From Alistipes sp. (lineage in GTDB: Bacteria > Bacteroidota > Bacteroidia > Bacteroidales > Rikenellaceae): a stretch of 64,000 bases of DNA. The first letter of the stretch is position 1. The number at the start of each line of letters is the position of its first letter. Where the stretch lies: positions 1-64,000 of the forward strand of contig JAFZFP010000018.1 of NCBI GenBank assembly GCA_017555905.1. Direction: 5' to 3'. This document shows, one piece after another, positions 28,115-29,075 of the stretch. The notes beneath the pieces were generated by a model, which was given only the letters and a program-made list of their open reading frames with translations, made no database searches and was not told the DNA's origin. Both the position numbers and the translations under genes were made by a program.

Positions 28115-28543
28115 ATGGAGACAAATCAGACGAATGTATGGCTCTGCCGTAACTGCAACACCCTCATAAGCAACGATATAACAATATGTCCTAAGTGCGC
28201 TACAGAGCGTGGTGACGAGGAGATTCACAACGAGCCTATCCCCGAGGAGATTAGCGAGGTTGTGGAGCGCAAAGAGTATGGCAACCCCAAGCCTCAAAAG
28301 TCGAAGTATATCTTTAGAGAGGCGGTATTGGTGAACATCGCAGACATCACCCTTATCATCGGTATTTTCTGCACATTTGGCTCACTCGTTGCCCCCTACA
28401 TCGTCGAGTTAAACCTCACCGCCCCTATGATGTGGGCAATCGTGGTGGCTGTAATAATCTTTGCCACATCGCTACTCTCGTGGGCACTGCTTCGCACCCT
28501 TGCTGAGATATCGCGTATGCTAAGAGCGAGGAACGACTTGTAG
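28115..28543 (+). CDS. zinc-ribbon membrane protein, function unknown
   Basis: A 142-residue protein with an N-terminal zinc ribbon (WLCRNCNTLISNDITICPKC, C-x2-C...C-x2-C, about 9-28), a charged linker, then two hydrophobic helices (about 74-97 and 104-125). Topology suggests a membrane-anchored metal-binding domain on the cytosolic side. It shares a transcript with the preceding Cys-rich protein, so the two may work together. No named family recognised. Confidence 0.78.
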   Translation: METNQTNVWLCRNCNTLISNDITICPKCATERGDEEIHNEPIPEEISEVVERKEYGNPKPQKSKYIFREAVLVNIADITLIIGIFCTFGSLVAPYIVELNLTAPMMWAIVVAVIIFATSLLSWALLRTLAEISRMLRARNDL

Positions 28544-28626
28544 TCGCAATCCCTCCACAGCGTCGGCTCCATCACCCACCTCGGCAGTCATTATCGTACG
28601 GTTTCGGGACAGGGCGTTCGGTTGTT

Positions 28627-28666
28627 CGTTCGTTCGTTTTCCTGTTGTTCCGAACGAACGAACACT
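28627..28666 (+). repeat. left 40-bp inverted repeat arm, itself a hairpin
   Basis: Perfect inverted copy of 28923-28962. With three more bases on its left it folds on itself: GTTCGTTCGTTCG at 28624-28636 pairs with CGAACGAACGAAC at 28651-28663 around a 14-base loop. The GTTC tetranucleotide is repeated within each stem strand. Confidence 0.95.
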
Positions 28667-28692
28667 ATAATTATTAAAAAATTTATCTCAGT

Positions 28693-28794
28693 ATGAATAG
28701 TGAATATAGATATCAGTTGGAGAGATACCGAGGTCGTGGTACTCGATACAACTACCCTCAGTGTGGTAGGAAATATATGTCAATGAGAGAGTAG
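28693..28794 (+). pseudogene. 33-codon remnant resembling the N-terminus of DUF6371-type proteins
   Basis: The ORF from ATG 28693 to TAG 28794 encodes MNSEYRYQLERYRGRGTR, then a YPQCGRK patch. From memory this follows the start of DUF6371-containing proteins of Bacteroidota mobile elements (YR-x-LE-x-Y-x-G...TR...CPxCG). The first zinc-finger cysteine is replaced by Tyr here and the frame stops ten residues later, so it is either a dead fragment or a tiny derived peptide. It lies wholly between the two 40-bp arms. Confidence 0.5.
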
Positions 28795-28830
28795 ATACTA
28801 TCTGTTACCATACTCTCTCTACATATATCT
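28771..28830. repeat. interrupted hairpin inside the 28.6-29.0 kb element
   Basis: ATATATGT...AGAGAGTA on the left pairs with TACTCTCT...ACATATAT on the right around a loop of about 17 bases. Just downstream, near 28862-28886, TGTGGGTAT pairs with ATACCCCACA in a second hairpin. Confidence 0.6.
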
Positions 28831-28922
28831 TACTGATATAGATATCAATAGTATTATTGAGTGTGGGTATCACTATACCCCACATCAATACTTTGAGAAT
28901 AACCCTTGGTTGAGAGATAACA

Positions 28923-28962
28923 AGTGTTCGTTCGTTCGGAACAACAGGAAAACGAACGAACG
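28923..28962 (-). repeat. right 40-bp inverted repeat arm
   Basis: Exact reverse complement of 28627-28666. Its self-hairpin is slightly shorter (10 bp, 28929-28938 with 28953-28962) because the outer flank differs. Homology with the left arm stops abruptly on both sides, and no target-site duplication is visible. Confidence 0.95.
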
Positions 28963-28964
28963 CT

Positions 28965-29075
28965 CTACTGCTCTGCCTTCCTAATTAAATCAAATACTGC
29001 CGACCTGCTCTTATAGCCTAACTCGTCGGCAATCTGCTGAAGGGTCTTGCCACTATTCGAGCCACTCAGCATCAT
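28965..29075 (-). CDS. possible 36-residue HTH-like small ORF or gene remnant
   Basis: Minus-strand ORF whose product contains GKTLQQIADELGYKSRSAVF, a convincing helix-turn-helix pattern. It overlaps the last 23 bases of the YjbR-like gene in another frame, and its stop lies 3 bases from the right 40-bp arm. An in-frame stop just upstream means it cannot be longer. It is probably the C-terminal end of a lost mobile-element gene and may not be expressed. Confidence 0.3.
   Translation of the reverse strand: MMLSGSNSGKTLQQIADELGYKSRSAVFDLIRKAEQ

Follow-up and report, generated by a model that had tools for sequence, protein, structure and literature searches.

The 336-bp unit bounded by inverted hairpin arms in the stretch of Alistipes DNA analysed here (64,000 nucleotides, the window) is the core of a relic of approximately 515 bp (28537-29051) left by a two-gene element, and not a stand-alone MITE. 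It is probably a decayed, non-autonomous copy of a selfish replicon of the helicase-primase type with an origin-like pair of arms. In this Alistipes lineage, the replicon sits among chromosomal genes, with no integrase seen beside it.

A repeat search recovered two perfect inverted arms of 40 bp, 100% complementary (arm 1, 28627-28666, plus strand; arm 2, 28923-28962, minus strand), around 256 bp, in agreement with the initial annotation. From the base composition, the number of perfect 40-bp inverted pairs at most 1 kb apart expected in the window is approximately 5e-17, so that the pair is not due to chance. Each arm is also, as previously described, a hairpin with a 14-nt loop, the 14-bp stems being 28623-28636/28651-28664 (100%; hairpin 28623-28664, with GTTC/GAAC words) and 28923-28936/28951-28964 (93%; hairpin 28923-28964). 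With the family evidence discussed below, arm 1 is proposed to be a putative initiator-binding repeat set. The interior (28667-28922, plus strand) contains 66.4% A+T versus 51.9% for the whole window and, by tblastn and blastn, holds the broken Zn_ribbon_16 start of a DUF6371 gene (ATG at 28693). Codons 1-32 (88%) and 49-85 (58%) of the intact protein correspond to 28693-28788 and 28841-28948 on the plus strand, confirming the DUF6371-like start recognized initially; a profile search of the genome with PF21957 did not list this broken fragment.

The statement that homology stops sharply at the arm ends turned out to be wrong. On comparison by blastn with the intact element of the same genome (G000:C15, see below), minus-strand matches were found on both outer sides (28537-28589, 96%, E 6e-22; 29006-29051, 87%, E 1e-12), with a plus-strand match for the interior (E 4e-49). 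The left outer piece (28537-28626, minus strand; blastn and tblastn) is a remnant of the DUF6371 linker, approximately codons 92-124 of the intact copy; it includes a second sub-match at 28596-28620 (88%, E 1e-4), and its outer end shares 7 bases with the end of the neighbouring gene (28115-28543). The right outer piece (28965-29051, minus strand; tblastn, blastn and translation) is the 3' remnant of an ATPase gene, namely its last 28 codons, encoding a C-terminal helix-turn-helix (HTH) with the recognition helix (stop codon, 28965-28967; residues 306-330 matched at 60% by tblastn). Thus, read on the minus strand, the order is ATPase gene end, arm, middle, arm and DUF6371 linker and, since the outer pieces lie on the minus strand and the middle on the plus strand with respect to the intact copy, the middle of the window unit is inverted. 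In this copy the arms do not mark the ends of the unit, element sequence extending beyond each of them.

The full-length copy with a DUF6371 gene that had been anticipated was found at G000:C15 by searching the genome itself. Its ATPase (330 aa; best Pfam match, PF13481 AAA_25, E 6e-22) ends with a C-terminal HTH, and its second protein (323 aa) consists of an N-terminal Zn_ribbon_16 (PF21957, E 1e-24, 86.4 bits) and DUF6371 (PF19898, E 7e-46, 156.2 bits), both profile matches being above the cut-off. We take the AAA_25 ATPase to be RecA-like and DUF6371 to be TOPRIM-like. The left arm directly follows the ATPase stop, as in the relatives, and the right arm lies in frame inside the DUF6371 protein, between the Zn ribbon and the DUF6371 domain; the arms of intact relatives thus bracket the Zn-ribbon exon. 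The element is flanked by an arginyl-tRNA synthetase gene on one side and a dihydrouridine synthase gene on the other, and none of 8 neighbour genes is an integrase. Every DUF6371 match in this genome falls in the window, in C15 or in the C6/C24 copy described below, and the only full ATPase found has a recognition helix unlike that of the window. No convincing match was obtained by sequence in the PDB (best E, 0.068 and 0.015), PHROGs contained no family for DUF6371, and no report of this element was among the papers listed by a literature search; the word DUF6371 occurs in one paper of the library searched. DUF6371 relatives were found in a Bacteroides plasmid, within an ATPase-DUF6371-mobilization cluster, and in a phage, near DnaB and among replication genes, with a zinc-binding domain and the annotation 'DNA primase/helicase'.

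Upstream of the ATPase start of C15 (L004:12-426), an array of approximately 22-bp direct repeats (TTTGACCCGAAATTGATATA-like) was observed, and many other full copies carry different low-complexity word arrays at about the same place. A common block, recognized by eye upstream of the ATPase (L007:6758-6859 and the equivalent place in other full copies), holds TTGACA, a TATATTTG-like box and a GTTCA-n-TTGAAC palindrome, a possible operator.

A second copy in the same genome, split across contigs C6 and C24, has a derived interior in common with the window: identities between the two are 191/209 and 145/155, versus 182/246 between the window and the intact copy. The rearrangement that broke the Zn-ribbon frame of the window is derived and common to the C6/C24 copy, which differs from the window in both arm words and recognition helix. 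A 401-bp query (28600-29000) gave no other match to the 40-bp arm in this genome (86.85% complete), which does hold arms of the same build with different words. The ATPase and Zn pieces lie on the same strand in all 26 other loci having both (tblastn; 22 of L085-L114, L116, L120, C15 and C6). The middle of the window unit was plausibly flipped by recombination between the identical inverted arms and, with its Zn-ribbon frame broken as well, the window copy is an orphan relic.

An empty site exists, as had been envisaged, in a related species (G025), where the two flanking genes are adjacent: the YjbR match extends to 1269, immediately followed by the stop codon, and that of the convergent zinc-ribbon membrane gene starts at 1277. 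In the window, the same two neighbours (83% and 61% protein identity) are separated by approximately 515 bp of element. In line with the initial annotation, no target duplication is visible around the unit, as judged at this single empty site, where the distance between the species allows the insertion ends to be placed only to a few bases. A second empty site was sought for the C6/C24 copy through its sigma-factor neighbour, and the epimerase of the C6 side was within reach at none of 10 loci (10 genomes).

For the family survey, one genome for each of 84,980 species was scanned for Zn-ribbon relatives and the best 80 of 375 loci were taken; a scan of viral contigs added 11, for a total of 91. 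Of the closest 30 among the loci taken (L085-L114), 27 come from Alistipes MAGs labelled as ruminant gut and 3 from a single Rikenellaceae MAG. A simple score for an inverted arm pair bracketing the Zn exon, with the left arm on its upstream side and the right arm on its downstream side, was calculated for 88 loci, 3 having been dropped for too little flank. An arm pair scoring at least 21 was found in 28 of them (highest shuffle, 14; best other locus, 15, L158), which comprise 25 of the 27 scored among L085-L114, two Xanthocytophaga elements and one viral contig. The two exceptions within L085-L114 are L095, which is weak, and L108, with both arms upstream of the exon; outside this group, 58 of 61 scored loci are without arms around the Zn exon. 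The Xanthocytophaga elements that share the arm layout have an integrase, a D5-type helicase and a small terminase (TerS), and the viral contig has an integrase and an AAA_25-HTH ATPase. The layout of L116 and L120 differs, the gene order being reversed (DUF6371, then ATPase); their arms precede DUF6371 and immediately follow the ATPase, such as would result from cutting a circle between its two arms. As a separate observation, in L114 (5150-5350), L105 and L106 the right arm is multiplied in frame, in 72- or 78-bp steps, and the protein linker thus carries repeated arm-coded peptides.

The arms are built of word repeats on the 5' side, a centre near CCCTATG (absent from the window arm loop) and the reverse complement of the words. 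Covariation in the stems of 20 arms was 0.622 versus 0.186 when shuffled (0/500) and 0.13-0.30 when slid, all 12 stem pairs having changed on both sides and 82.1% of the cells pairing. Within an element the two arms carry almost identical words; from one element to another, the words diverge widely. A repeated 4-mer is present in 30 of 30 arms, a weak test given that shuffles yield a mean of 24.8 and a maximum of 29. Near the arms, Rfam gave a single chance-level match (E 0.84), far below threshold. The proposed likeness to REP hairpins did not hold, as the stem words vary so widely between elements and a search for the Y1 (RAYT-type) transposase family found none in 18 genomes (controls positive, 5/14).

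In arm-flanked genes, the Zn exon is richer in A+T at third codon positions than the remainder of the gene. The A+T content of third codon positions in the Zn exon minus that in the rest of the gene was compared for 52 full-length genes (51 of the 56 found, near-duplicates being left out, plus C15): the median difference was +41.8 points in the 17 genes counted as arm-flanked and −1.1 in the 35 others (p 5.5e-9). Among the former are 15 Alistipes/Rikenellaceae genes, ranging from 30.7 to 61.2 and including L091, counted as flanked with a contig that ends after showing the right arm only, and the two Xanthocytophaga genes, with just +10.2 and +12.2. The highest unflanked gene (L154) reaches +25.1. 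Three Rikenellaceae relatives with arms elsewhere (L108, L116 and L120) gave +8.1, −4.7 and −3.3, and an Alistipes gene without arms (L132) gave −5.9. As controls, the start regions of 15 ATPase genes and of 67 other ORFs had medians of +2.1 and +4.7, with 1 of the 67 at 30 or more. In five copies in which the Zn exon is lost or broken, the interiors are still 66-84% A+T, and the intergenic interior of L108 is 62.6% A+T. The simplest reading of this compositional step is selection for an easily melted stretch between two binding sites.

In the ATPase, the core is strongly conserved and the recognition helix is hypervariable. With helices and arms trimmed by hand, helix distance was found to correlate with word distance (Mantel r 0.38-0.39, n=26), also when Zn-ribbon distance was taken into account (partial r 0.43-0.44, n=24), after removal of three near-duplicates (r 0.34-0.40, partial 0.36-0.41, n=21) and with the right arm in place of the left (r 0.37-0.40, n=25). 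Removal of both T-rich arms and near-duplicates left r at 0.27-0.33 (n=17, p 0.001-0.014). For the 14 full copies r was 0.50-0.52, with a partial value given the ATPase core of 0.51-0.53 (0.42-0.47 without L110); the core itself showed no positive correlation with the words (r −0.15 to −0.21). Mere linkage does not explain the correlation of helix and words, as the Zn ribbon shows hardly any correlation with the words (r 0.05-0.10, n=24) despite being encoded between the arms. Among the 26, GTAC words go with helices ending in Y[MI]LNK (3/3) and GGTTGG words with VIEALK (3/3). There are exceptions: the helices of L101 and L107 are almost identical, the words being GTTCG in the former and GTTCATTC in the latter; L093 and L097, also similar in their helices, differ in their words (GTTCG and TTTC, respectively); the window has GTTCG words like L093 and L101 with a different helix; and the YVLNK helix of L112 is found with TTTTC rather than GTAC words. 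Overall, the arm words covary with the recognition helix, which, on the evidence of sequence comparison, points to the ATPase as their reader.

These properties favour paired initiator-binding sites of a replication origin over transposase ends. The arrangement, which resembles that of PICI origins, and the position of DUF6371 relatives beside replication or mobilization genes led us to propose that the ATPase binds and opens the DNA and that DUF6371 primes. We infer a path in which the C-terminal HTH of the ATPase encoded by the element would bind the two arms as inverted sets of short repeats, the DNA between them being an AT-rich melting zone within the Zn-ribbon exon of the partner gene. 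Bound to both arms, the ATPase, as initiator or helicase, would open the AT-rich middle and load onto it; priming would then fall to DUF6371, TOPRIM-like and a probable primase. Stripped copies would keep the origin core (often HTH tail, arms and AT-rich middle) and lose the genes. Against this origin reading stand the palindromic form of the arms and their conserved CCCTATG-like centre, neither of which is required of plain iterons, and the cost to the host of a chromosomal origin that fires.

Stripped copies for which a contig end gives no explanation account for 12 of the 30 loci L085-L114 (L086, L090, L092, L093, L095, L096, L101, L102, L104, L105, L107 and L114). All 12 keep the Zn piece at least in part and have lost most of DUF6371. 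An ATPase tail of 21-55 residues lies outside the left arm in 7 of the 12 (tblastn); none was detected by tblastn in the other 5, two of which (L096 and L107) have a partial tail legible by eye. Loci fetched through the Zn ribbon cannot by themselves establish retention of the core. With the ATPase as the query, 22 chosen genomes, of which 11 had a Zn-ribbon match and 11 had none, yielded 8 full or nearly full matches, 3 tail-only matches and no front fragments, the tail in the window not being listed. The retained piece of the stripped copies is the core, on small numbers. In fetched stretches, solo arms (L217, L221, L232 and L234) and copies without the Zn ribbon (L231 and L233) were recognized by eye. 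L233 lies upstream of argS, where C15, L087 and L088 have full copies (argS being named by profile in C15 and by eye in the other three), so that some stripped copies probably arose by deletion in place. In two species, L092 and L095 are stripped copies apparently at the same site, after a gene that is presumably phosphoglycerate mutase-like, with quite different arm words; arms can change while the site stays. In L231 and L232 (G022), repeated blocks like GAGTATCTATGAGTTTCGATGGGTTAATATAGAAACCCATTCTAACTCATAG adjoin the arms.

An arm model gave 46 matches in 6 of the 22 genomes (G011, 25; G025, 7; G017, G022 and G035, 4 each; G000, 2), numbers that are lower bounds because the model is insensitive (it missed 4 of 6 known arms of G000 and those of G028/G029 and G004) and 150 candidates per genome were scored. 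The ATPase was matched in 8 of the 22, including all six with arm matches (tail only in G035), and the model found no arm in the 14 genomes without an ATPase match. With G004, where arms are present without an ATPase match, the link between arms and ATPase across genomes is strong, not absolute. Many of the 25 matches of G011, with its single full ATPase match, are near contig ends, as expected of dispersed near-identical copies. In the same genome, 41 matches of GGGCGCTTCGCTT word arrays with inverted halves were seen beside many stripped copies and elsewhere. These arrays were considered as terminal inverted repeats of the unit and rejected, as they also occur where no arm was found; they are another dispersed word-repeat palindrome. 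No integrase-like tblastn match was obtained in any of 17 full loci (control loci positive, 6/6), and one was found among the 12 stripped loci, somewhere within the 10 kb of L107.

The dispersal of such copies bears on the initial reading of the unit as MITE-like, in which a trans-acting transposase cuts at the arms, as hairpin ends, and the Zn-ribbon piece between them is carried as cargo. Much of that description stood, namely a non-autonomous copy of a larger element with a full-length DUF6371 relative, an empty site and dispersed copies of the same build; the position of the arms at the ends of the unit did not. Transposition of this kind would agree with the empty site in G025, with the ratio of arms to ATPase in G011, with the derived interior found at two sites (the window and C6/C24) and with L102, a stripped copy in which element sequence stops at both arms (by eye) and whose words are those of a full copy 26 kb away. 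We nevertheless regard it as unlikely: element sequence extends beyond the arms in the window, and 7 of 12 stripped copies have an ATPase tail beyond the left one; the one empty site shows no target duplication; the Y1 family, the one searched, was absent from 18 genomes; the arm words track the ATPase recognition helix; and cutting at hairpin ends gives no reason for an AT-rich exon.

A further proposal retains the origin and differs only in who reads the arms: folded as single strands, they would be initiation sites recognized by the primase DUF6371, like ssiA/ssiB of RSF1010. An inverted pair of approximately 40-nt hairpins with a conserved centre, beside genes of the helicase-primase type, would agree with such sites. 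However, it is the ATPase helix that the stem words follow, with hardly any covariation with the Zn ribbon, and direct word repeats within each half-arm suit duplex binding (by the weak 4-mer test, 30/30 versus a shuffle maximum of 29), which makes DUF6371 an improbable reader.

It is much less probable that the arms act as RNA, as mRNA hairpins or paired with each other, to control translation of DUF6371. If the genes are co-transcribed, the mRNA would contain both arms, one immediately ahead of the start codon and the other in frame, and their stems do covary; such control, however, predicts neither the covariation with the ATPase helix nor the AT enrichment between the arms, nor solo arms or gene-less copies, and Rfam offered only the chance-level match. 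An invertible switch, in which a recombinase flips the arm-bounded segment to turn DUF6371 on or off, would fit the flipped window copy and its perfect inverted arms and is the least credible of all, given that the pieces are co-oriented in all 26 other loci, that none of the 17 full copies has an integrase-like gene beside it and that the flipped copy is dead.

Returning to the origin reading, a more speculative extension, which we put forward only tentatively and consider doubtful, is a class of origin-only chromosomal DNA that spreads through the helicase-primase of one intact copy, with neither transposase nor integrase, by replication-linked insertion, and whose specificity drifts fast as helix and words co-evolve. 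If the origin reading is correct, it gives a meaning to a widespread, little-studied gene pair of Bacteroidota (AAA_25 ATPase with HTH and DUF6371), with an origin melting zone written into a protein-coding exon through codon choice. It would also offer a set of naturally matched pairs, initiator helix with DNA word, as a basis for deducing a recognition code, and chromosomal entry of integrase-free replicons and their origin-only copies would become directly testable.

Among known systems, PICI Rep proteins are of the SF3/AAA+ type and the best Pfam match of the element ATPase is, instead, AAA_25. RSF1010 combines the RepA helicase, the RepB' primase and the paired inverted ssiA-ssiB hairpins of approximately 40 nt. 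The Alistipes element is alike in its RecA-like putative helicase, its probable primase and its paired inverted hairpin sites of that length, and differs in that its ATPase carries an HTH of its own, whose helix the arm words follow. In Bacteroides mobilizable elements and gut phages, DUF6371 likewise adjoins an ATPase, within integrase/mobilization or phage replication clusters, whereas the Alistipes elements carry only two genes.

With REPINs and MITEs (PMC3116915), the units share their short, non-autonomous and dispersed nature and the paired inverted hairpins; they differ in that the stem sequence is not common between elements, Y1 transposase and target duplication were not found, and the arms lie internally, both in the window unit and in 7 of 12 stripped copies. 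The features of a MITE seen here are thus non-autonomy, multiple copies and one empty site, and those not seen are terminal inverted repeats at the unit ends, with L102 as a possible exception, and target duplication. Satellite plasmids of the IncQ group are derivatives without replication genes that depend on them in trans (PMC6925257); they are extrachromosomal and the Alistipes stripped copies are chromosomal.

The closest likeness is to the pri-rep-ori module of PICIs (SaPI and Gram-negative ones). PICI origins lie 3' of rep and consist of two iteron sets around an AT-rich region (PMC6092414), and the origin is recognized by the C-terminal domain of the initiator helicase in SaPI Rep and SCCmec Cch2 (PMC7581432). 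The Alistipes element has in common a candidate origin just 3' of the initiator-like gene and two sets of short element-specific repeats flanking an AT-rich zone; specificity in the C-terminus may be a further parallel, the words covarying, with exceptions, with the HTH helix. It differs in having an AAA_25 ATPase with a small HTH as the initiator-like protein, in repeat sets that are palindromes with a conserved centre, in an AT-rich zone placed inside a coding exon and in the lack of an integrase beside the elements (17/17 full loci), whereas the Xanthocytophaga relatives have both integrase and TerS. The element does not qualify as a PICI, a REPIN or a classical MITE, and is best seen as the relic of an integrase-free replicon with a PICI-like origin layout.
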